This document shows positions 1,226-18,891 of a stretch of DNA of 25,004 bases, piece after piece. Numbering within the stretch: the first letter of the stretch is position 1; the number at the start of each line of letters is the position of its first letter. This stretch comes from a virus. A program made the position numbers and the translations under genes. Location of the stretch: positions 1 to 25,004 of IMG/VR virus record IMGVR_UViG_3300049483_000100; one strand, written 5' to 3'. The notes beneath the pieces were generated by a model that was given only the letters and a program-made list of their open reading frames with translations, was not told where the DNA came from and ran no database searches.

Positions 1226-3849
1226 TAGTTCACACTCCTTGAGATCTCAACCCAATTAGTGCCATTACAGATCAATTTCAATGTCGAGTCGGCAACAGCG
1301 GTTGTAAAGTTTCCATTCAGCTTCAGGTTGCTACCATCAGTAACATCGAAAGTGGCACCAACGCCCCATATGATTGTAAGTTCACGCGATATGTTCTCTG
1401 CTGCCGTATCGCATGTATTGATAGTAGTTATAGCCGTCCCGCCAGTAAGAACGATGACGTTGCAGTCGTCTATGGTTATAGTTCCGGCAGAGGTTGTTGT
1501 CACGCATGTGCCTTGAGCGAATGAGCCGACATGGACAATGGTCCCGGTGATATTCACTACTCCTGTGGCATTGGCAGTCAAGTTGATGTTTTTACCTGCG
1601 TCCTGTGGCTGTAACGTCAGCTCTCCGTGTGGATTGATGTTGAGGTTGCTGTAAATTGCACCATTCCACTGATCTCCGATTGAGGCAACGGAAAGCGTTG
1701 GAGGAGATGCAGGCCATATGGTGTTGACATACATTACACCCGAGGCGTTATCGATCTTGAACTGATTCGCAGACGCCGCAGCAGTGCACTTTGTCTTGTA
1801 TCCTGTCGTCCCGCTCCATGTGGATATACCGTCAGCAACACAGGTTCCCGTGCCTACCGACGATGAGATGTAGTTTGGTGAGCCCGATACAACGGGAAAG
1901 ACATAGATGCCGGATGAGGCTGATGCTATATCGAAGGAAGTAACGCCGCCACCGTATGTAGAATTGAATAGTCTGCCGGAGGGTGGCGCGGATAAGTCGA
2001 TGCTTCCTGCGGAAATGGTCAGACCGGTGGAAAGAGTCATGCTTTTGCCCGTAAGCAGTCCATCGCTTGCTCTCATGCTGAAGAAACTCGATGCTCCTAC
2101 TCTCCAATCGAAGAAAAGGCTTGTTGGATCTGACGCAGTATTGATAAGCTGATATCTGAATACGGGAACAATGCCGGTAGTATTAAGTGTTCCTTGCCAG
2201 ATTTCATAGGATGCGACATTGGCTCCAGTAAGCGAATATCCCAGGTTGGTATGGCCTGTCGTGTTGCCAGGAAGCGTCTCGGTGGTCTGGTTATTGAAAG
2301 CGTTGATTCCAGTAAAGGTATTAGCTGAACCTAATTGCGGTGTTGTCGCTGTCGAGGGTATGGTGGAATTGCTGTTGGGGAAGACGTAATTGTGAAGCGC
2401 CGTTGGCCCGGAGACATTGAAGAAGGCTGTTCCAGTGCCTCCGTTGGCGACTGGCAAGACGCCTGCGACCTCGGAAGCGAGGTCCACATTGGCGGTCCCG
2501 CCTCCGTCAATGACGACTGAGGTTGCAGCCACGCCTCCTGAACAAGATCCCCACGAAGGGTCTGCGCCGCTGCCCCCGTTGAGCAGACACTTGGTTGAAA
2601 CGGTGTTGACGTTGTCATCGGTGAATTTAGCTAATGGCAGTATGCCTGCGGCTTCTGCGGTGGCGAGGTCTACCTCGTTCGTGGTTGACCCTGAGCCAGT
2701 GTATTTGGTGGCCGTGACGCTGCCAGTGCCTGAAAGGATGATGCTTGCGCCTGTGTCCACGGTGAGAGATGAGCCTGCGCCCATAAGCAATGACTGGCCG
2801 GTGTTCGGGGTGGCTCCTCCAGTGATCGCGGAAAAGGCTGTTCCGGCAGTAGCGGCGCAGGTTCCCCATGCAGGATCGCCTCCACCTCCCCCCGAAAGCA
2901 GGCATTGATTAGCGGTGCCAGAGTCGGTCAGACTTGCTAGAGGCAATGCCGCAGAAAGCGATGTAGCGACAATGGTGCCGCTTCCTGATGTAGCCATGCT
3001 AGATCCTGTACCAACAGTCATGGCAGCAGACAGATTTGTTCCGCTTGTCAAAGAATCGAATCCCGTACCTCCCGCAGCAGTTCCTACAGCAGATTCCGAA
3101 CCATTCTCGCACTTGGTGAACGAGGTCGCACCGTTCTTGACATAGATCCCATAGATTCCTGCGGCGCAAGTCGGATTACTTCCTGCCGGGGAGAACATTG
3201 CGCCTACGTTTGCAGCGTAGTCTCCAACTGTGCCATCGCCCGCAGTCTCAAGGAAGTAGTTCCCGGTAGCGATTCCATTTGGCGGGTTAAAGACGTTGAT
3301 GCCATTCTCGAATAGACACACTTGCTGTGTGGTGGAATTGTCGCAGTCAGTAAATCCAAGCCCGCCTGATTTGATAGCCCCTGTCCCCGCCGCCATCATT
3401 GGACCTGTCCCGGTGCCTGCCGTGGTCAGGCCATGGTTGTCAGGCAGCGCGATGACATTGCCGTAACTGTCAGCGGTAGTGGATGCGTCCTGCGCTACGA
3501 TTTTGCTAGGGGTGTAGAGAATGCCTCCGGTGACATTCAGATTGGCGTCGTAGGAAAACGCGCCTGCTGATCCTGCGAATTGGACGGCCCCTGCGGTTCC
3601 GGCTGCGGATGCAGAAGGCGACGGAATAAGCGTCCAGTTGCCAGTGCCGTCCGCATCGTTGTCGTAGCAGCGATAGGTCTTACCATCCGCTACACGTGTC
3701 ACAAGCCCTGTGATGGAGATAGAGCAGGTGGCATTGTCTACTGGAGGAGGAGTGATGACTATGACAGGAGCGGTGGTTGCTGCCATCAGCACGCACCCCG
3801 CCGCTGCCATGACCGCCGCCACCGCGAGCTTATTCATGGTGTTGCGCAC
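1225..3849 (-). CDS. Large tail fibre-like protein with N-terminal signal peptide (874 aa)
   Basis: The sequence is rich in Gly, Ala, Ser and Thr, with repeated low-complexity shaft segments such as LPVANGGTG (about residues 465-473) and GGTGF (260-264), common in phage tail fibres. Two copies of a Cys-bracketed module, CLLSGGGGGDPAWGTC (316-331) and CLLNGGSGADPSWGSC (421-436), lie 105 residues apart, each preceded by an LPLA-x-(F/L)TD stretch. The C-terminus (about 780-874) ends in LKLICNGTNWVEIS, like the tips of other fibres. The N-terminus (MNKLAVAAVMAAAGCVLMAATTAP) looks like a signal peptide, with AAGC resembling a lipobox. The start is GTG at 3849, with AAAGGA 7-8 bases upstream; an ATG four codons later is the alternative. 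The role in host binding is inferred from composition and from its place after connector-type genes. Confidence 0.75.
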   Translation of the reverse strand: MRNTMNKLAVAAVMAAAGCVLMAATTAPVIVITPPPVDNATCSISITGLVTRVADGKTYRCYDNDADGTGNWTLIPSPSASAAGTAGAVQFAGSAGAFSYDANLNVTGGILYTPSKIVAQDASTTADSYGNVIALPDNHGLTTAGTGTGPMMAAGTGAIKSGGLGFTDCDNSTTQQVCLFENGINVFNPPNGIATGNYFLETAGDGTVGDYAANVGAMFSPAGSNPTCAAGIYGIYVKNGATSFTKCENGSESAVGTAAGGTGFDSLTSGTNLSAAMTVGTGSSMATSGSGTIVATSLSAALPLASLTDSGTANQCLLSGGGGGDPAWGTCAATAGTAFSAITGGATPNTGQSLLMGAGSSLTVDTGASIILSGTGSVTATKYTGSGSTTNEVDLATAEAAGILPLAKFTDDNVNTVSTKCLLNGGSGADPSWGSCSGGVAATSVVIDGGGTANVDLASEVAGVLPVANGGTGTAFFNVSGPTALHNYVFPNSNSTIPSTATTPQLGSANTFTGINAFNNQTTETLPGNTTGHTNLGYSLTGANVASYEIWQGTLNTTGIVPVFRYQLINTASDPTSLFFDWRVGASSFFSMRASDGLLTGKSMTLSTGLTISAGSIDLSAPPSGRLFNSTYGGGVTSFDIASASSGIYVFPVVSGSPNYISSSVGTGTCVADGISTWSGTTGYKTKCTAAASANQFKIDNASGVMYVNTIWPASPPTLSVASIGDQWNGAIYSNLNINPHGELTLQPQDAGKNINLTANATGVVNITGTIVHVGSFAQGTCVTTTSAGTITIDDCNVIVLTGGTAITTINTCDTAAENISRELTIIWGVGATFDVTDGSNLKLNGNFTTAVADSTLKLICNGTNWVEISRSVN

Positions 3850-3862
3850 AGTGAAATCCTTT

Positions 3863-4576
3863 CTAGATGCCGAACGACAGGTCGTTCCAGGCGTAGGAGC
3901 CGTCTGATTGCAGTGCAGCCCACTTCAGGACTGCGGGCGAGCCTGTGTCTTTGACGATGATGAGCGTGTTTTCGTAGGCTGAGGAAGCGGCTGGAAGCGT
4001 AGCCGTGGTGAAGATGCTGAAGGTTGAGACTCCTCCACCGCCACCTCCGGTTCCGGCCACAGCGGCAGGAACGATGGTGATGGCGACGGGCGTGCCTGCG
4101 GCAGAGCGGATAAGCTCCCAAATGTCCACCGTCGAAGCGTGCCAGTAGAAGTAGTTTCCACCGGCGTCGCTTATCACGGTGGAGTTGGTGTTCGCGAGCG
4201 CCCCGTCCATGACCGAGTAGGTCGGCACCCCGCTACCATCGTAGTTGGGCGAGGAGGAGCCGGAATCGCCCTCCAGGTTGAAGATGTAGTCCCCCGCAGC
4301 CACGGTATAGGTTCCGCTCGAAAGAGTGATCGTGGTGGCCGTGGTGGAGGCTACAGAGTAGATCCCTGAGAAGGTGGATGTCCCGATGGGGTTAATTAGG
4401 AGCCTGTTCCCGGCTGTAATGCCATGATTAGCCCGTACGGTAAAGGTGCTGCCAGAGGAGGCAGAGGCCACCTGAGCGCCGGGGTTGTATGCGGAGACGG
4501 AGTAGCCTGCGCCGGGGGCAAGGTAGCCTCCTGAGAGCGTTGTGACGTTGTTTGAGCGGAAGGAGAACGTAGCCAT
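3863..4576 (-). CDS. Virion structural protein, tail fibre/decoration-like (237 aa)
   Basis: This 237-residue protein is Ser/Thr/Gly-rich. Its N-terminal half reads as short beta strands (TFTVRANHG, STTATTITLSSGTYTVAAGDYIFNL). A GGGGGG hinge follows near residue 178, then a C-terminal module ENTLIIVKDTGSPAVLKWAA...DGSYAWNDL. This last module resembles the short C-terminal domains of phage fibre and baseplate-associated proteins, which often end in a D/G-Y/x-W-x-x-L pattern. AAGGAG lies 8 bases before the ATG. It sits 12 bases after the connector candidate and 13 bases before the large fibre, so all three are probably co-translated. The family is not firmly recognised; a fibre-anchoring or short-fibre role is an inference from composition and position. 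Confidence 0.55.
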   Translation of the reverse strand: MATFSFRSNNVTTLSGGYLAPGAGYSVSAYNPGAQVASASSGSTFTVRANHGITAGNRLLINPIGTSTFSGIYSVASTTATTITLSSGTYTVAAGDYIFNLEGDSGSSSPNYDGSGVPTYSVMDGALANTNSTVISDAGGNYFYWHASTVDIWELIRSAAGTPVAITIVPAAVAGTGGGGGGVSTFSIFTTATLPAASSAYENTLIIVKDTGSPAVLKWAALQSDGSYAWNDLSFGI

Positions 4577-4588
4577 TGGCGAGGCTCC

Positions 4589-5329
4589 TTAGTAACCTGG
4601 GTAGTAAGGCCACGAGTAGTAGCCTGCAAATGTAGGAGGTGGTAGACGAAACCGCCTGTGCTGATCCTCGTGCTGACGGTCAGACTTCTCAAAGCGGCTC
4701 AGTGCGTCGCGAGCGTCCATGGCTTTGACCGGAAGCGCCGGGGAGTTTGGGGCATAGATCGTAAGCGCCTCGACCTGCGCCCCGTAGACCAGGGCGTTTT
4801 CGATCTCCTGCGGGGCGTCGAGGATGTCGCCATCCTCTGCAAGCAGCGCAAATCGCTTGTAGTAGGAGCCTTTGATGTATTGGGTGGATGCAGATGCGCC
4901 GTAGTCTGGCTGCGGAAGAAGCCGTATCTTCCCGTCCGCATGGACATTGAACAAGGTGTAGTAGCAGGTGAATGTCCCAAGGGACGCCGGGCGCGTCACG
5001 AACACCTTGTGATACTCGGCGTAGTCGATATAGGTCAGTTCATTGATCTTGTCGCCATGGACATCGGTGACACGAAACTCGATCTCCTTGTAGAACAGGG
5101 TCGGAAGTGACGTATCTGCGCCATTTGTGACAGTGATGATAGCCGTCTCGACCTTGTTGCATTCGTAGAGAGCGGCGTTGAACTTGACGATTTGCTCGTT
5201 GAGGAACTCGCCGCAAGCAGCTAGGATGGTTGGTTGGCGCTCGCCTCCGACTATTCTGGCAACCTTCTTCTTGAGGTAGCCGAATGTGCCGGGCTTGGTG
5301 CTGCTGTAGGAAGTGACTACGGTGCTCAC
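4589..5329 (-). CDS. Probable head-tail connector/adaptor protein (246 aa)
   Basis: The middle of the protein, IRLLPQPDYGASASTQYIKGSYYKRFALLAEDGDILDAPQEIENALVYGA (broken here into its elements: P-x-P-D, a Y-x-K-G/Y-Y strand, a D-D/I-x-x-P-x-E loop, then a helix A-L-V-Y-G-A), matches the general pattern of phage neck/adaptor proteins that dock under the portal. The N-terminal ~60 residues look helical (GYLKKKVARIVGG, CGEFLNEQIVKFNAALYE), as in gp4/gp6-type adaptors. The C-terminus is Tyr/Pro-rich (FAGYYSWPYYPGY). It starts with GTG at 5329, with GGAGG 7 bases upstream, and overlaps the glycosyltransferase stop by four bases (GTGA). Its position before fibre genes fits a connector role, which is inferred rather than proven. 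Confidence 0.5.
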   Translation of the reverse strand: MSTVVTSYSSTKPGTFGYLKKKVARIVGGERQPTILAACGEFLNEQIVKFNAALYECNKVETAIITVTNGADTSLPTLFYKEIEFRVTDVHGDKINELTYIDYAEYHKVFVTRPASLGTFTCYYTLFNVHADGKIRLLPQPDYGASASTQYIKGSYYKRFALLAEDGDILDAPQEIENALVYGAQVEALTIYAPNSPALPVKAMDARDALSRFEKSDRQHEDQHRRFRLPPPTFAGYYSWPYYPGY

Positions 5330-6486
5330 GGGGCAGCCTCCATGACTTCTATTGCGTCGGCCATGCCATTGCCGTCGTCATCAATGACAGGAAGCCCCGT
5401 GACTTCCTCATAGAAATCTTCCCATAGATGAATCTTGGCGTCAATGCTGCGTTCTGCCAAGACCCATTCACGGGCGGCTGCAACCTTCTTGGCGCGAAGG
5501 GCGGCATCGTCTATCAGGGCAAGCAGTGACTCCTTCCACTCATAGGTCGTAGAGGCCCACAGGATGGCTGAATCAGGCACATCAGCGTAGGTAGCCCAGT
5601 CTGTTGCCACACAGGCAGCGCCCATCATGGCCGCTTCCATAGCCTTGAGGTTCGACTTTGCTGCATTGAAGGCGTTGGTGACCACCGGCGCGAGGAAGAT
5701 GTCAGGCGCAAGCCACTTCATTGCCCGCTTATAGAGCGGCACATTCGCAGGCATGATGAAGAATGCGCGATTCTGCGACGGGTCAGAAGTCGAGGGCATC
5801 CACTGCTCCACAGCCCAATCGGGGATCATTGCCATCCAGTAGAGACGCACCTGTGGGCGCTGGCGCATGACTATCTCAAGAGCATCGCGGATCTGGTTGA
5901 TGTCCTCAAGCCGCCCGATTCCTCCAGCGAAGCAAATGCGTATGTCGCCTGATTTTGCCCTGTCCGGGTCCACAGGAAGCTCGTCCCAAGTCTCAGGCTC
6001 CACGCAGTTCGGAAGGATGGCTATCTTCTTGTTGTAGGGAGCGTAGACAGACGCAAGCGCAGCAGTTGTGACGCTCAGTGCGTCGGAATTGCGGAAGTGC
6101 CAGAGCGATGCCTTGCGGAACGACCCTCCTGCCGTATAGCCCTTAAATGAAGTGTTGTAGGGAGGCACATGCAGGACATCGTCATCCGCATCGCAGATGA
6201 TCGGAAGCGACTTGCCGAGTTGCTTGGCTGCGAAGTTTCGCATCATGGCAAGAAGCGCAACATGCTCGACTTCGGTGGTCTGCCCTGAGACAACGACATC
6301 CGCCCACGCTGCCTTCTCTGCCAGAAAGGTCATTGGATCACGTTCGGCAAGCGCATCGTTGCGGTCGTCGCAATACCAGACTTCATGCCCACGCCGCTCA
6401 AGCGCCCGCGCAGGAGTCCAACAGCGATAGTCTCCGACGCCGCCGCCTTGCTTATGTAGATACAGGATCTTCAATTTACGCTTCAA
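5326..6486 (-). CDS. Glycosyltransferase, GT4-like (GT-B fold), with Asp-rich C-terminal tail
   Basis: The protein has about 386 residues. The N-terminal Rossmann half starts with KLKILYLHKQGGGVGDYRCW (residues 4-23), with the GGVGDYR loop typical of GT4 acceptor-binding domains. The C-terminal half has an RICFAGGIGRLEDI strand-loop (183-196) and a nucleotide-sugar region KSNLKAMEAAMMGAACVATD (277-296) with the usual glutamate. It probably transfers a sugar from a nucleotide donor in the host cytoplasm. The last ~20 residues contain DDDGNGMADAIE (369-380), resembling a DxDxNGxxDxxE calcium-binding loop. The chosen start is TTG at 6486, because AGGAG lies 6 bases upstream; a TTG at 6513 has no comparable site. 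It overlaps the methyltransferase stop by 11 bases and the next gene by 4. It is a member of the glycan cassette. Confidence 0.8.
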   Translation of the reverse strand: MKRKLKILYLHKQGGGVGDYRCWTPARALERRGHEVWYCDDRNDALAERDPMTFLAEKAAWADVVVSGQTTEVEHVALLAMMRNFAAKQLGKSLPIICDADDDVLHVPPYNTSFKGYTAGGSFRKASLWHFRNSDALSVTTAALASVYAPYNKKIAILPNCVEPETWDELPVDPDRAKSGDIRICFAGGIGRLEDINQIRDALEIVMRQRPQVRLYWMAMIPDWAVEQWMPSTSDPSQNRAFFIMPANVPLYKRAMKWLAPDIFLAPVVTNAFNAAKSNLKAMEAAMMGAACVATDWATYADVPDSAILWASTTYEWKESLLALIDDAALRAKKVAAAREWVLAERSIDAKIHLWEDFYEEVTGLPVIDDDGNGMADAIEVMEAAP

Positions 6487-8203
6487 TGGTGACTCCTGGC
6501 TTGAGGGCGACAATGTCCGCCTCTGGAAGATCGTTCAGGTAGGATTCGATACGGGCGTGATGAATGACAAATCCTGCTGCGGTAAGTTCGCGCACCCAGT
6601 CTTCAATCGCTGGAAGGAATCTCTTGTGAGAGACGTATAGATTGCGAAGTTCGGGCGTATCCTCCTGCAATGGAACAACGAGGTAGACCCCCTTGCTGGA
6701 TACGCGATACATCTCACGAAGCACGGCGCCAAGATCGTCAACATGCTCAAGCATGTGCGATGAGTAGATCCAGTCGTAGGATGCGTCATCAAGACCAGTG
6801 CTAGCTGCGTCAGATTCAATCACAGGAATGCCAACTGACTTTGCTATCACAAGTTTGTCGGGATTGATGTCGAGGACGCGTATGTCGGCATCTACACACG
6901 CCTTCATAATCTCATCAGCCGCATCCCCATAGCCTCCGCCAAAGTCCACCCATGAGGATGTTGCTACTTCGTCAGGAAGATTGGCGACAACGCGCCTTGC
7001 CCGCATTCGCGCCCATTCGGCGTGCTTGATGTCGTCAAGGCGGTCCTGCTCCTCACGCTGCGCAGCCTTCATGGCCTCAACACGGGCCTTGATCTTGGCC
7101 CATACTTCAGGCTTATACGCCATGATGAGGCCTTCGCACATCATTGGGTTGGATGTCGCGTTGTAATCAAGGTCGCTTCTCCAGCCAACAGTGAAGCCTG
7201 CGTTCTCAATCTTCTGCGCCCACCAATCAACGCTTGCATCGCCATTGTGATGCGCTAGTTCGCGTCTGCGCATTTCGTATGTCTCAAGCGGGACGATGAC
7301 CAGAAGCCCTTGGGAGATGACCCGCGACAGTTCCCGAAGCGACTTAGTGAGATTCAGCGTATGCTCAAGCGTATGTGAGCAATACCCCCAAGCAACCTCA
7401 CCGTCTGCGTAAGGTAGCGATTCCATTAGCCCTTGGCGTGCAGGAACACCGCGCTCACGCGCCCATTCCACCCGATCCGCCTGACCATCGTAACACTCCA
7501 TGGCATTGCGTGTGATCTTGCGGAACTTCTCAGCGGTCATGCCATCGCTTCCGCCAAAGTCAACGCATAGGTCGTCCTCACAGAGATCCCCTGCGGTGAA
7601 GTTTATGAGCATCTTCACACGGGCTGCGGCGCGGGTGGCAAAGCCGGATTGCTCTCCATGGGATGACGTTGCCTGCTGATCCCAGTTCGGCAGCGCCTCC
7701 TTGCGCGCCCACGCATAGGACTGGATCTCCTTCATTTCGCTATGGACTTCCGCAAAACCAACGTCCTCAAGCAGCCTGTCAAGCGCAGGAGCTGAGATGC
7801 GCCAGTAGTCACCGAAGGTAGGCTCAGGATGATAGCGATACATCCACGGGCAATCCATGACCAACCAACCATTAGGAGCAAGGATGCGAAGGCACTCGGC
7901 CAAGGCAGCGCGAAAGTCCCACACATGCTCAATGGTCGAGGTCATAATGATGCGGTCGAATGAGTTGGATGGAAGTCCGGTGTTACAAATGTCGGCAACA
8001 ATGTCGGGATGAGTCTCCGGATCGCAATCAAGCGTCTTGAATGGGCGTGTCTTAAGATACGTCAGATCGTCTTCTGTGGCAGTAGGACCTGCGATGCCTA
8101 CATAGAGAATTCGCTCAGGCTTGTCGATGTCAAGTTCGTTGAGGATCTTTCCGATGACCGTCTGGAGTTCCAGCCGACAAGGTGTTGGTCCGCCGCCATT
8201 CAC
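6476..8203 (-). CDS. Triple-domain class I SAM-dependent methyltransferase (575 aa)
   Basis: Three Methyltransf_11-like units lie in tandem. Unit 1 (about 28-150) has RILYVGIAGP, TLDCDPE as the acidic-loop strand, and FDRIIMTSTIEHVWD as the motif IV region. Unit 2 (about 195-310) has LCVDFGGSDG, the segment ECYDGQADRVEWA, and WGYCSHTLEHTLN. Unit 3 (about 405-515) has WVDFGGGYGD, IRVLDINPDK, and WIYSSHMLEHVDD. A basic/acidic helical linker (about 365-405, KIKARVEAMKAAQREEQDRL) separates units 2 and 3. Each unit keeps the TxEH/LEH sequence common in small-molecule and sugar methyltransferases. It probably methylates sugars or lipids linked to the glycan made by the neighbouring genes; the substrate is not readable. 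It overlaps the deacetylase gene by four bases (ATGA). Confidence 0.85.
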   Translation of the reverse strand: MNGGGPTPCRLELQTVIGKILNELDIDKPERILYVGIAGPTATEDDLTYLKTRPFKTLDCDPETHPDIVADICNTGLPSNSFDRIIMTSTIEHVWDFRAALAECLRILAPNGWLVMDCPWMYRYHPEPTFGDYWRISAPALDRLLEDVGFAEVHSEMKEIQSYAWARKEALPNWDQQATSSHGEQSGFATRAAARVKMLINFTAGDLCEDDLCVDFGGSDGMTAEKFRKITRNAMECYDGQADRVEWARERGVPARQGLMESLPYADGEVAWGYCSHTLEHTLNLTKSLRELSRVISQGLLVIVPLETYEMRRRELAHHNGDASVDWWAQKIENAGFTVGWRSDLDYNATSNPMMCEGLIMAYKPEVWAKIKARVEAMKAAQREEQDRLDDIKHAEWARMRARRVVANLPDEVATSSWVDFGGGYGDAADEIMKACVDADIRVLDINPDKLVIAKSVGIPVIESDAASTGLDDASYDWIYSSHMLEHVDDLGAVLREMYRVSSKGVYLVVPLQEDTPELRNLYVSHKRFLPAIEDWVRELTAAGFVIHHARIESYLNDLPEADIVALKPGVTIEA

Positions 8204-8811
8204 GCCTCACCCCCTGAAGTAATAGGTGTTGGCGCCTCGCCTACCTCGTGAACGAACTTGAACTCACGCGCCTCCGCGTTCGGGACAATGAATTCATCGA
8301 AGTGATCTTCGATGCCATTGCCACTGACGTTCGGAAGATGCCCGTGAAGGCGCATGTAGCGCGGGTTACGAAGCGCCTTGTTGTAGGTGTAGGTGGATGC
8401 TGTGGAGCCAAGCACGCGAAACCCGGCATGGTCGGCAACGACAATCCCCAGCGAGGCGCACGCTGCGTAGACTTCGTCGTTCAGTAGCCACCCAGGAGCG
8501 CGGAAGGATGGCGCGTCAATGCCCTTGTCCTGTGCAAGTTTGATCTTCGCCATGGCCTCTTCCTGCGTCCATGACAGGCATTCGCCAAAGCCATGCCGCC
8601 ACCCGTGAGGAGCAAGTGCCACCCAGTCTCCGAGCGACTTCGCTTCAGCAATCGTGGCTGCGCTACAGCGCGCAGGGATGGTGAATAGCGTGACCTTGAC
8701 GGTTGGCATCTTCTCGCGAAGGCGTGCGATGTAGGCGAGTTTCGGACGCGTGGCATCGCACAGGTCATCGAAGTCAAGAACGACTGGCTTTATGTCGGTA
8801 GCCTTACTCAT
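8200..8811 (-). CDS. NodB-like polysaccharide deacetylase family protein (203 aa)
   Basis: The protein carries the reduced NodB pattern: VVLDFDD (residues 10-16) as the Asp-Asp motif 1, APHGWRHGF (67-75) with the H-x3-H metal-binding pair (H69, H73), and RAPGW (104-108) as motif 3. A later LHGHLPNV (155-162) could supply the C-terminal catalytic histidine. The family removes N- or O-acetyl groups from sugars using a divalent metal. The ATG at 8811 gives an 8-base overlap with the upstream gene (ATGAGTAA); longer in-frame starts would run deep into that gene and are rejected. Similar proteins occur both as true deacetylases and as uncharacterised DUF2334-type relatives, so activity is likely but not certain. 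Confidence 0.7.
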   Translation of the reverse strand: MSKATDIKPVVLDFDDLCDATRPKLAYIARLREKMPTVKVTLFTIPARCSAATIAEAKSLGDWVALAPHGWRHGFGECLSWTQEEAMAKIKLAQDKGIDAPSFRAPGWLLNDEVYAACASLGIVVADHAGFRVLGSTASTYTYNKALRNPRYMRLHGHLPNVSGNGIEDHFDEFIVPNAEAREFKFVHEVGEAPTPITSGGEA

Positions 8812-9529
8812 GCAGCACCTCTCCCGTGTAGGGCGGAATGTAGGGAAGGATCTGGAACAGGTCGTGTAACTCAAAGTAGTCCGGGTCGGCCTCTTCCATC
8901 TTGCGTGTCGGATGCTCGATGCGCACCCATGGGCAGTAAAACAGCGAGACGCCTGTGGTTCCTGCGTGCTGCGCCACTGACGTATCCCCTCCTGCTCCCA
9001 TGGCCTTGCGAACATCGGCGGTGTAGCCATTGAAGAAGCTGATGTGATGGAGGCGGCACGCGCCGCCAAGGATAGGAACCACGGCAAGCGGGATCTTCCC
9101 TTTGAGTTTGATGCGGGCGGCTATTGGCACAGGGTTCTTCAGTCCCTTGATGACAGGAGCGAAAACGCACCTCTGCCCAGAGAACGCATACACCTCGCGT
9201 TCGATTGCCAGCATCTTCTTGAGCCATCTCGGAGTCTTCCAGAGAAGGTCGTCATCCACCTTGACGATGAAGTCGTAGTCTTCTGCCTCGGCGATTCTGA
9301 GGATTGCGGCGAGGGCAACATGCTGACCCACGTTCTCGCCTGACCCGGCAATGTCAAAGCCTGCAAGCGATGTCGGAAGGTCGTGCGAGTTGCGCCAGAG
9401 AATCCATCGTGCAGGCGCTCCCATTGTGGATTGGGCTTTTGTGAGGGATGCGATGGCCGGTGCGACTCGCGCTCCTGCTGCCCGCGAGACGGTGTAGACG
9501 AGGACGCGAGGGCGTTCAATGTCGCTCAC
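8804..9529 (-). CDS. Glycosyltransferase, GT-A fold (GT2-like, DDD motif)
   Basis: The 241-residue protein begins RPRVLVYTVSRAAGARVAPAIASL, a compact first strand and helix of a GT-A fold. It has a metal/nucleotide-sugar motif in FIVKVDDDLLW (residues 87-97; D92-D94). GGACRLHHISFFNGY (155-169) resembles an acceptor loop, and GGDTSVAQHA (180-189) occupies the usual ED/base position. The last ~40 residues are rich in acidic and aromatic residues. It probably adds a sugar to a glycan or protein in the host cytoplasm; donor and acceptor cannot be read. It is coupled by an ATGA overlap to the upstream GT2 gene and by an 8-base overlap to the deacetylase gene, so the three are likely made together. 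Confidence 0.7.
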   Translation of the reverse strand: MSDIERPRVLVYTVSRAAGARVAPAIASLTKAQSTMGAPARWILWRNSHDLPTSLAGFDIAGSGENVGQHVALAAILRIAEAEDYDFIVKVDDDLLWKTPRWLKKMLAIEREVYAFSGQRCVFAPVIKGLKNPVPIAARIKLKGKIPLAVVPILGGACRLHHISFFNGYTADVRKAMGAGGDTSVAQHAGTTGVSLFYCPWVRIEHPTRKMEEADPDYFELHDLFQILPYIPPYTGEVLHE

Positions 9530-10353
9530 AGCATGGCTCCTGTGGTCATGGACTTGGGGTGAGGGGTTTCGCCGAAGGGGCGAGTGAGTTGAAGGTTGTC
9601 TGCGCCCCAGTGATAGCGCATGACGACTTTGTCGATGGGCTTGAAGCGCGAGGCTCCGGCCTTAGCACAGGCGCGAGCCAGAAGCTCCCAATCGCCGAAT
9701 CGTCGCCAACGCTCATTCCACATGGACTCTGTTGTCTCGTGCAGGAACCAGAAGAACCCGCGAGTTGTCATGAAGGAAGAAGTGTCGATGTAGTTGGCGA
9801 AAGGGCTGCTGCACAGTCGCTCAGGATTATGCTCAACTAGCGGCGTCTCACCGACCGGAAGCGTCTGTCCGTCCACAGTATTTTCAGGAGCGCCTTCGTC
9901 GCGCACATACTCCCATCTGCCGTAGACTAGTTGCGGCCAGACATCGCCTTCCTCCATCGCATCGAAGAACGCTCGCAATGCTCCCGGCATGTATTCGTTG
10001 TCGTCATCAAGGAAAGCAATGTAGTCTCCGCGAGATTGCTCAATGCCCTGATTCTTAGGGACGGCCTGATAGCCTGAGTTCTCGCCAAGGCGGTAGGAGC
10101 GCATGAGAATGCCCGCTTCCTCGAAAGTCACAGTCCACTCGCGTAGGACTCGCGCTACATCCTTCTCCGTTGACGCGTCATCGACAACGATGACCTCAAA
10201 ATCGCGGAAGGTGGGAAGCTGCGCGTGGATTGATGCGAGGGCGCGGGCGAGCGTTTTGGGGCGGTTGTAGGTCGAGACAATGACGCTTACTGCCGGGAAC
10301 GGCAGGTCGTCAAGGGCCTCAAACACAGGTGCTTGCTGCGTGACTTCATTCAT
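9526..10353 (-). CDS. Glycosyltransferase family 2 protein (275 aa)
   Basis: This is a textbook GT2 sequence. VSVIVSTYNRPKTLARAL (residues 22-39) is the donor-binding start, VIVVDDAST (54-62) the first Asp pair, and YIAFLDDDNEY (111-121) the DXD metal-binding motif. FGDWELLARA (219-228) fits the D-W-x-L catalytic base region. Family members are inverting enzymes using nucleotide-diphospho sugars. There is no membrane segment, so it should act in the cytoplasm. It starts two bases after the stop of the 167-residue gene; the only purine-rich site upstream is weak, so translational coupling is probable. It overlaps the next glycosyltransferase gene by four bases (ATGA). The acceptor is unknown; virion protein, lipid or host polysaccharide are all possible. 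Confidence 0.88.
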   Translation of the reverse strand: MNEVTQQAPVFEALDDLPFPAVSVIVSTYNRPKTLARALASIHAQLPTFRDFEVIVVDDASTEKDVARVLREWTVTFEEAGILMRSYRLGENSGYQAVPKNQGIEQSRGDYIAFLDDDNEYMPGALRAFFDAMEEGDVWPQLVYGRWEYVRDEGAPENTVDGQTLPVGETPLVEHNPERLCSSPFANYIDTSSFMTTRGFFWFLHETTESMWNERWRRFGDWELLARACAKAGASRFKPIDKVVMRYHWGADNLQLTRPFGETPHPKSMTTGAML

Positions 10354-10355
10354 GG

Positions 10356-10859
10356 CTAGATGTCCTTGTAGAAGAGTCTAAGGTCAGGGTCGCACCATTC
10401 AAGCGAGGGACGCGCATCGTCAAGAGTTGAGCCACTGAGCCAGTCATCCCACACGCGCCCCGGCATGACGCATCCATTACGAAGAAGTGATCCGATGACC
10501 TGGATGTAGCTAGGGCGCACAATGTCGTTGTCGCGGGGCTTTGTTACGTTCACAGCCTTTCCACCATGACCATCAGGGCGAATGATCTCTGCCTCACGAC
10601 CCATTGAATCTGCGCTTACATTGGCAACAACTGATTGCGCAAACCATTCCTCGTCAGCGTGGCCCAGATGAATCACCCCTTGGCGGCGCGGCAGGTCTTG
10701 GTCGTAGATGGTGTATTTTTCGGCAGGGCCGGTGCGCCATCCGAAGAGGCGCAGATACTGTGGACCGCTTCGCTTGTGTGCGTCCATGATGCGCTGAAGC
10801 GTGAATGGGTGCAGGCGCTTCTGCCCAAGCCCTTCGCGTAGATCCCATCTCTTACGCAC
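10356..10859 (-). CDS. Hypothetical protein of the glycan cassette (167 aa)
   Basis: No family is recognised. The start is GTG at 10859, chosen because AAGGAGG lies 6 bases upstream; the frame remains open much further upstream but only as an out-of-frame shadow of the neighbouring gene. The start overlaps that gene's stop by 8 bases (GTGCGTAA). The protein is soluble, with a basic N-terminus (RKRWDLREG) and segments such as GVIHLGHADEEWFAQSVV, AEIIRPDGHGGKAVNV and MPGRVWDDWLSG. The HLGHADEEW and RPDGHGG stretches are His/Asp-rich and could bind metal or a nucleotide-sugar, but nothing decisive is visible. Its placement between the GNAT-like gene and the GT2 gene suggests a job in the same modification pathway. 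Confidence 0.75.
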   Translation of the reverse strand: MRKRWDLREGLGQKRLHPFTLQRIMDAHKRSGPQYLRLFGWRTGPAEKYTIYDQDLPRRQGVIHLGHADEEWFAQSVVANVSADSMGREAEIIRPDGHGGKAVNVTKPRDNDIVRPSYIQVIGSLLRNGCVMPGRVWDDWLSGSTLDDARPSLEWCDPDLRLFYKDI

Positions 10860-11532
10860 GAGATACCTCCTTGATGTCGGCAAGCGTAAGGCCAATATTC
10901 GTGATGCCAAGCCCTTCCTCAAACTTCCATGTCGGAGTGTCGCGATGCTTCTCCCACCCGTAACTGAAAGTGGTGCAACCATGCGCGGAGGCTGCAAGCG
11001 ATGCGTGGAACATGAGCATATTAGCAACGCCGTCCTTCTGGTTCGCGGCATGGATGAGGAAGAAGAGGACAATGGCCGTGTCACCGAAGATGCCAATCTC
11101 ACATACGCCGACGATCTTCTGCGTAAGGTCGCGTGCTACATAGAGTTGCAGTTGATGATCGCGGCAAGTGTAGACATTGTAGTCGTAGACTGCCCAAGGG
11201 AGTTTGGCGAGATTCCAAAGGGTGCCATTGGGGCGATTGTTCTCCCAGTTCACCGGGCGACCTTGACGCTCAGGGCGGGACGCAAGGATCTCGCGCACAG
11301 GGCCGATGATTGAGCCGGTGCGACCAGTGATGCGCTCTGTTCGATACCCACGCCTTGTAGCCTTCCATACGTCGTTACGCGCACGCTTAAGAGGCTTGAG
11401 CGGAAGATGCGCCCATAGAGGGCGCTTATCGTAGCGGTCGGAGGAGTTTTCTGCATACCATGTCCCATACTTCACGAGTTGGTTGCAGTGTGGTGAGAGG
11501 GTCAATGGATCAGAGTGAGGCATCGCACGCAT
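10852..11532 (-). CDS. Hypothetical protein, weak GNAT-like acyltransferase resemblance (226 aa)
   Basis: The first ~110 residues are basic and unassigned (KRARNDVWKATRRGYRTERI). The second half, QLQLYVARDLTQKIVGVCEIGIFGDTAIV followed by NQKDGVANMLMFHASLAASAHGCTTFSYGW, alternates beta strands with one helix in the order seen in GNAT or FemAB-like acyl transferases: a central strand pair, then a helix after a Gly-containing loop, then a strand. No clear acetyl-CoA Q/R-x-x-G-x-G/A signature is present, so this is a weak call. The ATG at 11532 is preceded by GGGAGG at 9 bases; a longer start at 11595 would run through the tRNA-like element and is rejected. It is the first gene of the glycan cassette. 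Confidence 0.7.
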   Translation of the reverse strand: MRAMPHSDPLTLSPHCNQLVKYGTWYAENSSDRYDKRPLWAHLPLKPLKRARNDVWKATRRGYRTERITGRTGSIIGPVREILASRPERQGRPVNWENNRPNGTLWNLAKLPWAVYDYNVYTCRDHQLQLYVARDLTQKIVGVCEIGIFGDTAIVLFFLIHAANQKDGVANMLMFHASLAASAHGCTTFSYGWEKHRDTPTWKFEEGLGITNIGLTLADIKEVSRA

Positions 11533-11548
11533 TGTTGTTTTCCTCCCG

Positions 11549-11616
11549 TGGTGGACCCTGCCGGGATCGAACCGGCATGAACCGCCCCCAAGCACGGGGC
11601 AAGGTGCGGCAGGCCC
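11549..11616 (-). other. tRNA-like element: intact T-arm, acceptor end and CCA, but no D-arm
   Basis: Read leftward, this 68-base stretch ends in GGGTCCACCA, a tRNA 3' end with encoded CCA. Before it is a perfect T-arm, GCCGG-TTCGATC-CCGGC (11576-11560). A five-pair stem GCCCC/GGGGC (11600-11596 and 11588-11584) encloses a seven-base loop GTGCTTG in the anticodon position. The best 5' acceptor strand is GGGCCTG (11616-11610), pairing six of seven positions including a G3-U70 wobble. Only nine bases lie between acceptor and anticodon-like stems, where a D-arm needs about nineteen. It may be a decayed phage tRNA, a tRNA-mimic processing site, or a piece captured from a host tRNA. It sits just before the Shine-Dalgarno of the first cassette gene. 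Confidence 0.4.
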
Positions 11617-11625
11617 AGGAAACTA

Positions 11626-11659
11626 CGCAGCAGGCGGGCGTGCGAGCCTACCTGCTGCG
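11626..11659 (-). other. Strong intergenic hairpin after the 63-aa gene
   Basis: CGCAGCAGG (11626-11634) and CCTGCTGCG (11651-11659) form a perfect nine-base-pair stem. The inner part can add GGGC/GCCT pairs around a GTGCGA loop. It begins eight bases after the stop of the 63-residue gene on the leftward transcript. No run of T follows, so it is not a standard intrinsic terminator. It may block exonucleases, act as a weak terminator, or form one structured unit with the adjacent tRNA-like element. Confidence 0.5.
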
Positions 11660-11667
11660 ATAAAGCG

Positions 11668-11859
11668 TTACTTCGAGTTGTAGCCGCCCGAATCGTTCAT
11701 CGTGCCGGGGCGGGGGGAAGCGGGATCGTCGCCGGAATGCGAGATGACCGTCTTGGGCCAGCCGACATGCTCGTAGTTCGAGCCAGTCCCCTTCATGTAG
11801 TCAGCGGGGTTGGTGATCTGATCGTTCTTGAACCCGGCCATTGCTCTGTCGTTTGCCAT
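11668..11859 (-). CDS. Small hydrophilic protein downstream of capsid gene (63 aa)
   Basis: This 63-residue protein has an optimal Shine-Dalgarno (AAGGAG, 6 bases before ATG). It is hydrophilic and probably unstructured at the C-terminus (SGDDPASPRPGTMNDSGGYNSK), with an N-terminal part GFKNDQITNPADYMKGTGSNYEHVGWPKTVI. No family is recognised. It lies between the capsid terminator and the hairpin/tRNA-like stretch, so it would be made from transcripts that read through the terminator. A capsid accessory or decoration role is possible by position only. Confidence 0.7.
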   Translation of the reverse strand: MANDRAMAGFKNDQITNPADYMKGTGSNYEHVGWPKTVISHSGDDPASPRPGTMNDSGGYNSK

Positions 11860-11876
11860 TGAAGGCTCCTTCGTCG

Positions 11877-11908
11877 AAAAGCGCAGACGCCCCGAAGGAC
11901 GCCTGCGC
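11877..11908 (-). terminator. Rho-independent-type terminator after the major capsid gene
   Basis: On the leftward transcript, GCGCAGGCGTCC and GGGCGTCTGCGC form a 12-pair stem (two G-U pairs) closed by a stable TTCG tetraloop, followed directly by TTTT (11880-11877). It begins nine bases after the capsid stop. The T-run is short and the Shine-Dalgarno of the 63-residue gene follows at once, so partial read-through is expected. Such an arrangement would give more capsid mRNA than downstream cassette mRNA. Confidence 0.8.
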
Positions 11909-11916
11909 GTTTGGGT

Positions 11917-12891
11917 TTACAGCGAGCGCGAGGAGAGGATGCGGACCATCCGATACTCCGTCGAGGTGTAGTTGACCGGGATGGCGGTGAAGAAGCACTT
12001 CGCGCCGACCGAGCCATACTGGTTGACCGGATCTGCTGCACCTGCGGACCCAAGCTGCTTCACGAAGGTCTGGGGAGCGCCGAGCCCTTCCAGTTCCGTG
12101 ACGTAGTAGGACTCAGGAGCGAAGATCCAAGTGTAAGCCGTCGAGGCCGTGGTGATGCACAGCGGGCCAGTGGAAGCCTTCTGCTTCGTGGACTCGACGA
12201 ACTTGACTCCCCAGAACTTGCCGACCTCTCCGTTGAAGATCCGCTCCACCGAGTTCTCGGAGTAGCGCATCACATCCACCCATCCGGCGAACGTCGAAGA
12301 GGTGGCGGTGAAGATGTCGTACTTCAGCTTGGGGTGCATGTATCCGGCGTAGCAGTTCGTGCCGGGGAAGCGCGGGTTCTGCGCAGAGTCGAGCTGCACC
12401 GTCGCCTTGATGATGTCCTTGGCGCGGATGGTGTCGGCGATGAGGACGAGGTTGGAGGTGGCCTTGCCGTTGCCGTAGATCTTCAGACCGTTGGCGCTGA
12501 TCTGATTGAAGGTGTGGGTGTCCATCTCGCGGGCAAGGTCGTATCCGATCTCCTTGATGGCAAGTTGAACCACATCGGAGAGAGCCGTCATTGCGATGAC
12601 ATCGGAGTGCTTGTAGGCGCCCGTGAACTGCTTGAGGGTGCCGGAGATGAGCTGCGAGGACAGGGCGCACAGAGCAGGCGCGGTGCCTTCTGTGACGGAG
12701 GTGGTGATGACTCCGCTCGTCCGCTTGAGGATGCGCGGGATCAGGATGGTCTTACCAGTGCCAAGGGGAATGCGCCGCTTCTCGCCGAAGTCGTAGAGGT
12801 AGAGCGAGGGGCGAAGGTTCTCGCCGATCTTCTTGTCCCAATACTTCGGGAGAAAGCCAAGTGCGAGGGTTGTGGTATTTGTGATTGCCAT
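11917..12891 (-). CDS. Major capsid protein, N4-gp56-like (HK97 fold)
   Basis: The 324-residue protein has the profile of the N4-gp56 major capsid family. It has an N-terminal substrate-like region (MAITNTTTLALGFLPKYWDKKI) and a basic strand-loop IPLGTGKTILIPRILK (41-56) in the E-loop region. A long spine helix follows, TALSDVVQLAIKEIGYDLAREMDTHTFNQI (about 102-131). The C-terminal signature GSAGAADPVNQYGSVGAKCFF (281-301) resembles the family's G-A-x-D-P-x-N-Q-x-G-x-V-G motif, followed by the closing strand YRMVRI. It assembles into the icosahedral shell. AAAGAG lies about 9 bases before the ATG. It follows the candidate scaffold by 15 bases and is followed by a strong terminator, as usual for the most abundant virion protein. 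No cleavage protease is visible nearby. Confidence 0.82.
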   Translation of the reverse strand: MAITNTTTLALGFLPKYWDKKIGENLRPSLYLYDFGEKRRIPLGTGKTILIPRILKRTSGVITTSVTEGTAPALCALSSQLISGTLKQFTGAYKHSDVIAMTALSDVVQLAIKEIGYDLAREMDTHTFNQISANGLKIYGNGKATSNLVLIADTIRAKDIIKATVQLDSAQNPRFPGTNCYAGYMHPKLKYDIFTATSSTFAGWVDVMRYSENSVERIFNGEVGKFWGVKFVESTKQKASTGPLCITTASTAYTWIFAPESYYVTELEGLGAPQTFVKQLGSAGAADPVNQYGSVGAKCFFTAIPVNYTSTEYRMVRILSSRSL

Positions 12892-12906
12892 GTGAGGCTA
12901 CTCTTT

Positions 12907-13968
12907 CTAGCGACTTGCCGCCCGACCGGGCCAGCCAGCGTCATCGTTCCTGATGGAGCCTGGGAACCACTTGTTGACGATGACTTCCATTTCCTTAGAG
13001 GTCTTGGCATTTGCGAGTTCAGCGTTCATTCGCATCTGCTTGGCCTCGTCGGTCAGAGGCTCGACGGGCGAGTTCGCTTGCGAAGGGGAAGCGGTTTCGA
13101 CGTATGTCTGCTGCCGCATGACCCTGCGCGGGTCGATCATCACGGGAGCGGCATTCTGAGCGCGCTGCGACGGGACGATCTGTGGGGTGTTCTGGAACGT
13201 AGATGCCTGAGACTGGGTAGTGAGCCTTCGGGCGTGGGCGAGTTGCAGAACAGTGCGATCACGCTCTGTGGGCGGCAGAAGACGAAGCGATGGAGCATCT
13301 GCGTAGACTGCCGCTTCCTCGACAGGGGAGACATCGAAACCTCCGAACTGTCGATACGCTGCCGAGACTGCTTCCTGCTTGACCGCCTGAGTCTGCTGAA
13401 AGATCCGATTCAGGGCAGGGTCAACCTGCTCCTGAGCGATACGGTTCCAGTCGCCGATGGTCAGGGGTTCATTGGGGTCGCGGTCAGGGAAGGCATTGTA
13501 GGGAGCGGCAGGCGGCTGCGGCGCGTAGCCATACTGCGGAACCGGCTGCGAGGCTGCGAGAGACAGTCTTGCGGAGAGTTCTGCGTTCTGGGCTGCGAGA
13601 GCGGCGACCTGAGCCTCATATTGACGGCGGATCTCGCCTTTCTCGTTTTCGCTGCGACCGTATTTGACGCGGAAGTCCTCAGTGCCAGGAGCCTGCGAGA
13701 TAGGAGCATACTCCTGCTGCGGAGCGTATTCAGTGGCAGAGGCTTCCAACTGGAGCGCCGGGCCAGTGAGAGCAGGCGTTCCATCCTGGTAGCGTCCGCC
13801 ATCCTGAAAGCGGTTCGCAGAATCGTCGTTCATCCACTGTGAAGTCATGTCGTTGATCGCCGACTCCCCGAGACGCGCTTGCGCGGAGGCAATGTCTGCG
13901 TCGGAAGGGGTCGAGGGAGCGACCTGAATCACGTTTGGATCGCGGGGCTGTGCAAATGGATCAGGCAT
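12907..13968 (-). CDS. Candidate capsid scaffolding protein (353 aa)
   Basis: The gene lies directly upstream of the capsid gene, the standard place for scaffolds. The product is hydrophilic and mostly disordered-looking, rich in Gln, Ala, Pro, Asp and Glu, with no Cys visible. A helical, probably coiled-coil stretch runs from about residue 107 to 140 (ENEKGEIRRQYEAQVAALAAQNAELSARL), followed by a Pro/Tyr/Gln linker (QPVPQYGYAPQPPAAPYNAF). The C-terminal part has another helix (EPLTDEAKQMRMNAELANAKTSKEMEVIVNKWF), which could be the capsid-binding end. Scaffolds fill the procapsid and leave before or during packaging. An AGGA lies 8 bases before the ATG. The call rests on position and composition rather than on a family signature. 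Confidence 0.6.
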   Translation of the reverse strand: MPDPFAQPRDPNVIQVAPSTPSDADIASAQARLGESAINDMTSQWMNDDSANRFQDGGRYQDGTPALTGPALQLEASATEYAPQQEYAPISQAPGTEDFRVKYGRSENEKGEIRRQYEAQVAALAAQNAELSARLSLAASQPVPQYGYAPQPPAAPYNAFPDRDPNEPLTIGDWNRIAQEQVDPALNRIFQQTQAVKQEAVSAAYRQFGGFDVSPVEEAAVYADAPSLRLLPPTERDRTVLQLAHARRLTTQSQASTFQNTPQIVPSQRAQNAAPVMIDPRRVMRQQTYVETASPSQANSPVEPLTDEAKQMRMNAELANAKTSKEMEVIVNKWFPGSIRNDDAGWPGRAASR

Positions 13969-13980
13969 CGGTAAGTCCTA

Positions 13981-14079
13981 TCAGGCGCCGTTGAAAGCGC
14001 AAGCGGCGATGACCAAGACATCCACGCCGTAAGAGCGCGTCTGGGAAATCGCACAGGGGATCATTGAAGAGTGCGTCAT
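13981..14079 (-). CDS. Possible very small coupled protein (32 aa)
   Basis: An ATG at 14079 overlaps the stop of the 154-residue gene by four bases (ATGA), as in many gene pairs here. The frame runs 32 codons to a TGA 12 bases before the scaffold gene. The product has a hydrophobic stretch GVDVLVIAACAFNGA. It has no Shine-Dalgarno of its own, so it would depend on coupling. It also overlaps a strong palindrome, so it may be coincidental. Confidence 0.3.
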   Translation of the reverse strand: MTHSSMIPCAISQTRSYGVDVLVIAACAFNGA

Positions 14080-14135
14080 ATTGACGCACCTGCACTATAG
14101 TGCATGTTTTCGTCACGAGCGTCAAGTTTAGACGC
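14071..14135 (-). promoter_or_regulatory. Palindrome cluster before the scaffold-capsid genes
   Basis: Three inverted repeats lie within 65 bases. GTGCGTCA-N3-TGACGCAC (14071-14089) is perfect over 16 paired bases. TGCACTATAGTGCA (14091-14104) is a perfect 14-base palindrome. GCGTC-N7-GACGC (14119-14135) is the third. On the leftward strand a TTGACG box (14125-14120) precedes CACTAT at 17 bases or TATAGT at 20 bases, so a promoter for scaffold and capsid is possible, with the palindromes as operators. The cluster overlaps the last codons of the 154-residue gene. The binding protein is unknown. Confidence 0.5.
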
Positions 14136-14540
14136 TGCTTCAAGTTGCCGCTGTTGGATGGCGAACCAATCGGCGTATTGGCGGCGAGCGGCTTCGGGGA
14201 TGCCCGTGACTGTGTCGAGGGCGAAGATGATTGCCTGTATCTCGGTGGTGTCGAGCGGGGGCTTACGCGCCGGGCGGAACTTGCCGAGTGCAAGGTCTTC
14301 AACAAGCGCCGTGCGTGCAGCCTTGATCTTGCCGACAAGGTCGCGCCATCCCTCGCACTTGTCGAGGTCGTCCATGATGGACGCTGTATGGATCATTCGA
14401 CGCATGGCGTCTGCGGGATCGCCTGTTGGCTCTGCCGGTTCAAGCGGCTTGAGGGCCGCGTAGTAGGCGGAAAGGTCAATGCAGCGAGTGCATTGCGGTC
14501 GTGGGTCAAGTAGGCGGGCAAGGCGACGGCGTATGCTCAC
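14076..14540 (-). CDS. Hypothetical virion-operon protein coupled to portal (154 aa)
   Basis: No family is recognised. The protein is soluble, mostly helical and charged, with an Arg-rich N-terminus (MSIRRRLARLLDPRP), a CTRC pair near residues 17-20, and helices such as DAMRRMIHTASIMDDLDKCEGWRDL and QYADWFAIQQRQLEAASKLDA. Its ATG overlaps the portal stop by four bases (ATGA), so the two products are probably made in a fixed ratio. Position between portal and scaffold suggests a head-assembly or head-completion role, but no motif supports a specific one. Its 3' end carries the palindrome cluster, which may constrain the last codons. Confidence 0.75.
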   Translation of the reverse strand: MSIRRRLARLLDPRPQCTRCIDLSAYYAALKPLEPAEPTGDPADAMRRMIHTASIMDDLDKCEGWRDLVGKIKAARTALVEDLALGKFRPARKPPLDTTEIQAIIFALDTVTGIPEAARRQYADWFAIQQRQLEAASKLDARDENMHYSAGASI

Positions 14541-16471: not shown

Positions 16472-16480
16472 GGAGCGAGG

Positions 16481-16675
16481 TTACTTACGTCCTGCGCCAG
16501 AGCCGGGATAGCCAAACTCCTCAAAGGGGGTTCGCTGCGAAATCTTCTGACCCTCAAGCGGAGTGTCGGCAAGAGATCCATTGTCGGTGCAAGGGGTGTA
16601 GGCGTAGTCCTCAAAGGTGAGAGGCTGCGAGTAGCCCTTGGACTTGTCTGGTTCGTAGTTGGATTCGCGGCTCAT
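16481..16675 (-). CDS. Small hydrophilic protein between terminase and portal (64 aa)
   Basis: The ATG at 16675 is preceded by AAAGGTGG and overlaps the stop of the 30-residue gene by one base (TAATG). A longer in-frame start at 16753 would overlap that gene fully and lacks a ribosome site. The product is acidic and Tyr/Pro/Ser-rich (DKSKGYSQPLTFEDYAYTPCTDNG, then RTPFEEFGYPGSGAGRK) with no predicted fold or membrane segment. No family is recognised; small disordered proteins at this place often belong to head assembly, but this is only positional. Confidence 0.65.
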   Translation of the reverse strand: MSRESNYEPDKSKGYSQPLTFEDYAYTPCTDNGSLADTPLEGQKISQRTPFEEFGYPGSGAGRK

Positions 16676-16767
16676 TACTTGCCACCTTTCTTCATAAAGG
16701 GTGGGAGCGACTTCTTTGCAGGAGGCGCGGACTTCTTCGGGGCGGGCATACACTTGTCTGACTTCAT
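16675..16767 (-). CDS. Tiny Lys/Pro-rich peptide (30 aa)
   Basis: The frame MKSDKCMPAPKKSAPPAKKS... ends in MKKGGK, with 10 lysines in 30 residues. A GGGAGG lies 6 bases before its ATG, one of the strongest sites in the window, and its stop overlaps the next ATG (TAATG). The AAGK/PP repeats resemble short histone-tail or nucleic-acid-binding peptides. It directly follows the triple repeat downstream of the large terminase, so it may be the first product of a new transcript. Function unknown. Confidence 0.6.
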   Translation of the reverse strand: MKSDKCMPAPKKSAPPAKKSLPPFMKKGGK

Positions 16768-16792
16768 AGAAAACCTCCCAGTGATAAGTTTA

Positions 16793-16838
16793 GCGTCAAC
16801 TTGGCACATGCGTCAATTTGGCGCAGTCAATTTGGCAC
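16793..16838 (-). promoter_or_regulatory. Triple GTCAAnTTGGC repeat, likely operator/promoter
   Basis: On the plus strand, GCGTCAACTTGGCAC (16793-16807), GCGTCAATTTGGCGC (16810-16824) and GTCAATTTGGCAC (16826-16838) follow each other with a 16-17 base period. Read leftward, each contains a TTGAC box, and TTGACG-N18-TAAACT fits a sigma-70 promoter roughly (5/6 and 4/6). It overlaps the last codons of the large terminase and precedes the 30-residue gene. One helical turn and a half between units suggests cooperative binding of a regulator. Confidence 0.55.
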
Positions 16839-18881: not shown

Positions 18882-18891
18882 CGTAAGCTGC

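Follow-up and report, generated by a model that had tools for sequence, protein, structure and literature searches.

A candidate virion-glycosylation cassette between the capsid and adaptor genes of an uncultivated short-tailed phage

Glycosylation of virions has been reported in a few mycobacteriophages. In the cluster O mycobacteriophage Corndog, genes for an O-methyltransferase and glycosyltransferases (gp35-gp38) lie between the portal and protease genes, and a modification of the capsid was proposed by the authors; the products of these genes were not themselves parts of the virion (PMC4351075). PMC12363180, citing Freeman 2023, reports that phage glycosyltransferases modify the capsid and tail-tube proteins of Che8, Corndog and Myrna with sugars. 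The DNA examined here is the entire virus record IMGVR_UViG_3300049483_000100 of IMG/VR (25,004 bases, called the window), probably a fragment of the genome of an uncultivated, short-tailed phage. Between its capsid and head-tail adaptor genes lies a cassette of seven genes, among them glycosyltransferase, methyltransferase and deacetylase-like genes. Because its core is found at this position in about ten further environmental phages, the cassette most likely endows the virus particle with a decoration of methylated sugars. A late-expressed cassette that glycosylates a virion protein is regarded as the best explanation of the locus, and as a reasonably probable one.

Gene content of the cassette

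The late operon occupies the minus strand, with its genes at 1-19434. Its order is terminase (phrog_38 match), SU10-type portal (PF23899 match), scaffold-like protein, N4-gp56 capsid, a small protein of 63 amino acids (aa), the cassette, SU10-type adaptor and fibre-like proteins. An earlier note on this DNA had described seven tightly joined genes within the virion operon, and all seven open reading frames (ORFs) were recovered on the minus strand, from the ATG of the GNAT-like gene at 11532 to the stop codon of the GT4-like gene at 5326. The cassette and its two boundary genes are as follows.

11917-12891, minus strand: major capsid protein of the N4-gp56 family, bounding the cassette upstream (TIGR04387, E=1.2e-37; phrog_1357, E=1.1e-37)
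10852-11532, minus strand: gene 1, GNAT/FemAB-like acyltransferase, 226 aa, weak assignment (PF13508, pepcterm_femAB, YpeA)
10356-10859, minus strand: gene 2, orphan, 167 aa (coding bias)
9526-10353, minus strand: gene 3, GT2-family (GT-A) glycosyltransferase (PF00535, E=1.2e-25)
8804-9529, minus strand: gene 4, second GT-A glycosyltransferase, KVDDD motif (homology to fused dual glycosyltransferases; orthologue in the related record L228, E=4.7e-30)
8200-8811, minus strand: gene 5, CE4/NodB-like deacetylase, predicted to be cytosolic (motifs, Foldseek, L228 orthologue)
6476-8203, minus strand: gene 6, three fused S-adenosylmethionine (SAM) methyltransferase domains (PF08241 in three stretches, E=5.8e-35)
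5326-6486, minus strand: gene 7, GT-B (GT4-like) glycosyltransferase, final cassette gene (phrog_7162, E=5.3e-25)
4589-5329, minus strand: SU10-type head-tail adaptor, downstream boundary of the cassette (PF24175, E=1.5e-12)

The junctions between the cassette genes measured -8, +2, -4, -8, -4 and -11 base pairs (bp), i.e. overlaps of 4 to 11 bp and a single 2-bp gap, and the adaptor start was overlapped by 4 bp by the final cassette gene. The coding potential of all seven ORFs was confined to the annotated frame, and their codon usage resembled that of the structural genes; both applied to the orphan as well. A search of positions 4500-13000 for sigma-70-like promoters found none, and so none between the cassette genes. 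None of the seven proteins had a membrane span or a signal peptide, and the cassette contained neither a flippase nor a GtrA/GtrB-type transferase; serotype-converting gtrABC has the membrane flippase GtrA and the membrane-bound GtrB.

The seven products had been read earlier as a GT4-like enzyme, two GT-A enzymes, a NodB-like deacetylase, a triple methyltransferase, a weak GNAT-like protein and one unknown, and these assignments held. In Pfam only genes 3 and 6 scored above the cut-off, while genes 1, 4, 5 and 7 remained below it and gene 2 had no match. Gene 3 reached 90.8 bits with PF00535 (cut-off 23.3), matched the chondroitin synthase structure 2z87 (E=4e-16) and corresponded to the N-terminal half of a fused dual glycosyltransferase in L221-L226. 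Gene 4 obtained 12.1 bits with the same model (E=0.19), under the cut-off, and no library match above cut-off. It was accepted as a GT-A enzyme because it is homologous to the C-terminal half of the fused dual GT-A proteins (i-Evalue 1.9e-13; five independent records); in L221 the half homologous to gene 4 scored 22.8 bits against the PF00535 cut-off of 23.3.

Gene 5 scored 14.8 bits with PF01522 (E=0.028), under the cut-off of 23.1, and was classed as CE4-like. This weak call was rescued by conserved motifs and by structure comparison. The metal triad D16, H69 and H73, together with F-x-x-P-x-W and LHGH, was invariant across seven relatives, and nearly all PDB matches in Foldseek at E<=0.001 were CE4 enzymes, the model being of low confidence (predicted template modelling score 0.59; predicted local distance difference test, pLDDT, 58). 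The residue before the metal-binding Asp, at the catalytic-base site, was Asp in the window, L226 and L225 and His in L221, L223, L224 and L227. In gene 6, domains 2 and 3 were related duplicates (E=3e-18). Gene 7 starts with TTG at 6486, preceded by AGGAG; it scored 24.4 bits with Pfam Glyco_trans_1_2, just under the cut-off of 25, and had a homologue in L002 (tblastn, 2e-18).

Gene 1 matched PF13508 with E=4.6e-4 and 20.9 bits, under the 27-bit cut-off, and no GNAT model met its curated cut-off; pepcterm_femAB (E=0.0024) and YpeA (E=0.009) were further weak matches. Gene 2 had no match in Pfam, PHROGs, NCBIfam, phages or genome contigs, and its predicted structure (pLDDT 38) gave no predictable fold.

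Recurrence of the core and edges of the cassette

Relatives in IMG/VR were reached by a GT-B motif pattern and by CE4 alignments, and the contigs so obtained stemmed from many metagenomes. The same gene order, which the earlier note had proposed to look for in related phages, was found for a core of two GT-A domains, methyltransferase, CE4 and GT-B. Among the matches listed, this core followed the capsid gene in about ten distinct records, and in those long enough the adaptor usually came next. L221/L222 (the same phage from two samples), L223, L224 and L225 had the order portal, capsid, small gene, dual glycosyltransferase, methyltransferase, CE4, GT-B, adaptor and stabilisation protein; in L223 the GT-B and adaptor genes were separated by additional ones. 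L226 agreed with this order through the GT-B gene, which lies at the contig end. In L228, L229, L230, L231 and L234 the core was present with variations, and in L229 it was seen up to CE4 near the contig end. Adaptor and stabilisation proteins of the relatives were called with profiles built here from annotated seeds; the L221 adaptor was unrecognised by Pfam. The GT-A genes were fused into a single protein in most core-bearing records and separate in L228 and the window, and the fusion implies a joint action of the two enzymes.

The contigs carrying the GT-B motif numbered at least 119, a set selected by motif in which many contigs were too short for both capsid and adaptor. A capsid gene was present upstream in 29 of them, an adaptor within 9 kb downstream in 37, either in 46 and both in 20; among the matches listed, the adaptor immediately adjoined GT-B in 26 of 119. 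In the named uncultivated phages ctQWt234 and ctKR88 this site was occupied by similar cassettes with a different set of enzymes. A search of the phage collection for closely related DNA returned none, and scans of IMG/VR with the single capsid, methyltransferase and terminase proteins or with a GT-B alignment gave no relative; a 7-member capsid alignment was too diverse for this purpose. Genome contigs had no match to the orphan and CE4 proteins, nor did phages in tblastn to the GNAT-like, orphan, second GT-A and CE4 proteins.

The closest relative was L228. Identities to it were 42% for NodB, 42% for GT2, 28% for the second GT-A and 34% for the second methyltransferase domain, compared with 37% for the capsid and 33% for the portal. 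Since conservation of the cassette proteins is about that of capsid and portal, the core has been retained for long and was not freshly inserted; judged by these identities, its retention goes back about as far as the divergence of the virion genes. The cassette had previously been called "inserted", which suggests a recent event and does not agree with a core that occupies the same site in about ten phages and has diverged about as far as the capsid gene.

Related genes were also seen elsewhere. A methyltransferase-CE4-GT2 trio at L233:9402-11315 lies in a 203-kb virus contig, which suggests that parts of the cassette move to large phages. In another phage (L012:1-4042, MW202497.1) a GroEL-annotated gene just upstream of the portal is flanked by glycosyltransferase genes; glycan genes thus also settle at the opposite edge of the head module.

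Two features separate the capsid gene from the cassette.

11668-11859, minus strand: 63-aa protein after the capsid gene (ORF and coding bias)
11533-11667, minus strand: 135-bp gap, in which a strong hairpin, CGCAGCAGG...CCTGCTGCG, is followed by a degenerate tRNA-like element at 11549-11623

The 63-aa protein sits where relatives place a small gene (about 55-200 aa), and a search for a homologue found none. The small post-capsid protein of the cassette phage L223 (L223:6858-7424) has a GroES/Cpn10 domain (PF00166, E=1e-7), and its counterpart in L225 resembles it by eye. The tRNA-like element, on the minus strand, has a perfect T-arm, a 7-base acceptor strand, the discriminator A and CCA. Eight of the nine matches to its search pattern in 2.6 Mb of scanned sequence were real tRNA-like cloverleaves, and ARAGORN called it as tRNA-Ser(GCT) at a relaxed threshold only. 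An Rfam search of the region gave no credible match, and a second copy, sought at the opposite end of the cassette as the mark of an integration scar, was not found. A relic, an att scar and a processing signal are candidates for this element. At the other end of the operon two successive fibre/beta-helix-like proteins (2-1225 and 1225-3849, minus strand) start with Sec signal-peptide-like sequences, MRLIRTIVAIVLVFGAMATANAA and MRNTMNKLAVAAVMAAAGCVLMA, which virion proteins do not usually have; the N-terminus at L223:13352-14725 is similar.

Proposed virion glycosylation and its rivals

In the proposed pathway the GT-A enzymes would act as a pair, and together with the GT-B enzyme they would transfer sugars from nucleotide-sugars of the host to a virion protein in the cytosol. 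The acceptor would presumably be the capsid, a small capsid-associated protein or a fibre. The CE4 enzyme would strip N-acetyl groups, the methyltransferases would cap hydroxyl or amino groups, and an acyl or aminoacyl group may come from the GNAT-like protein, whose GNAT match was below threshold. The particle would end up with a short glycan, methylated and in part deacetylated; we infer both the order of the steps and the benefit (shielding, stability or adhesion). As the cassette proteins have no membrane segments, cytosolic transfer from nucleotide sugars to protein fits better than a lipid-linked surface assembly, and the CE4 enzyme implies N-acetylated sugars. Genes for sugar-nucleotide synthesis (PF01370, PF00483) were sought in the window and six related records and none was found, so the donors probably come from the host, and the pathway is not "complete" as the earlier note had it. 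The glycan-building role proposed there is still the best reading of gene identities, layout and position, its acylation step depending on the sub-threshold GNAT match.

Some results weigh against virion glycosylation. Serine and threonine were not more frequent in the capsid C-termini of cassette phages than in those of cassette-free ones, and Ser/Thr-rich capsid tails, tried as the acceptor, were unsupported by this comparison. Over the whole capsid the Ser/Thr content was 18.6% with and 15.2% without the cassette, a comparison confounded by ancestry. None of 46 loci selected by capsid, with a downstream adaptor or stabilisation gene and regardless of glycan genes, had a recognisable glycan gene in between, in a sample skewed to relatives of a human-gut phage. 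The cassette is thus dispensable for this head type, and so the capsid-adaptor junction is a recurrent yet optional home for glycan cassettes. The late operon would also suit a late modification of the host surface.

Such a remodelling of a host surface glycan (O-antigen, capsule or S-layer glycan), blocking superinfection or easing progeny release, is the main rival. CE4 enzymes and methyltransferases are common in polysaccharide clusters, and phage glycosyltransferase clusters were read as host-surface modifiers by the authors of a pelagimyophage survey (PMC7029224). However, the virion operon is a late position for exclusion, and the cassette follows the capsid-adaptor site across diverged phages. 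Virion and host surface had both been named as targets before; with no membrane span, signal peptide, secreted enzyme, flippase or GtrA/GtrB in the cassette, the virion fits better and the host surface worse, and we consider the latter rather unlikely. Glycosyltransferases and GNAT-fold enzymes hypermodify DNA in other phages, and glycosylated or acylated bases could protect against restriction. A thymidylate-synthase/hydroxymethylase homologue (PF00303) was not found in the window, an incomplete genome, or in six related records, which makes base modification unlikely; the genes stand in the virion operon and not among replication genes, and we know of no role of CE4 deacetylases in DNA hypermodification. 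This explanation is highly improbable.

The locus might instead be a moron island in which glycan genes gather loosely, at a spot where insertions are tolerated and without a joint pathway. This would agree with the varying content of the site (radical SAM, PhyH and other methyltransferases in L002, L003, L227 and L232), with the orphan and GNAT-like genes without relatives and with the tRNA-like relic at the upstream edge. The fixed core of about ten records with its GT-A fusions, about as conserved as the virion genes, makes such an island improbable. For virion glycosylation a farther-reaching version can be drawn up, to which we give little credence: the dual GT-A, related in sequence to chondroitin synthase, may build an oligo- or polysaccharide on short-tailed phage particles that CE4 and methyltransferase tailor to a cationic methylated coat, a widespread undescribed pathway with the capsid-adaptor junction as its dedicated modular locus.

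In L227 a long Ser-Pro repeat protein (SPSLSPSKSPS...; L227:1759-2736) directly precedes a glycosyltransferase/radical SAM/CE4 cluster and is a candidate for a mucin-like glycan acceptor.

Comparison with described systems

The window and its relatives present a larger conserved enzyme set, deacetylase included, whose position is fixed across many uncultivated short-tailed phages. If the capsids are indeed decorated, phages with elaborate sugar coats would be far more frequent than is now appreciated, which would bear on the stability of the particles, their adhesion and their recognition by the immune system. The cassette is also a compact candidate for a cytosolic protein-glycosylation pathway, testable in E. 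coli. The literature searched, with subscription papers mostly outside it, contained no description of the capsid-adaptor cassette or of a deacetylase in any virion cassette.

Bacterial chondroitin synthase (dual GT-A, PDB 2z86/2z87) shares the paired GT-A domains and was the best solved match for the GT2 domain and the fused relatives. This likeness is confined to the sequence of the GT2 domains and says nothing on polymerase activity, substrates or membrane context. In Podoviridae sp. ctQWt234 (MW202801.1, Manatee Spring) the N4-gp56 capsid is followed by glycosyltransferases, a methyltransferase, a NodB-annotated protein and a homologous GT-B, and then by the adaptor. It differs in having radical SAM and PhyH enzymes as well, and its "NodB" protein had no detectable relation to gene 5; the record is silent on function. 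L228, L221-L226, L229-L231 and L234 share the core and the site, but GNAT-like and orphan genes were not detected there and the methyltransferases are separate genes; in most core-bearing relatives the GT-A domains are fused and the methyltransferase stands ahead of CE4.

Corndog likewise has glycosyltransferase and methyltransferase genes within the virion operon near the capsid genes. It is a long-tailed actinobacteriophage with four such genes, in which a CE4 deacetylase or a dual glycosyltransferase is unreported. On the evidence, the cassette of the window would work like the Corndog-type cassettes with CE4 and dual-glycosyltransferase steps added, a likeness of gene content.

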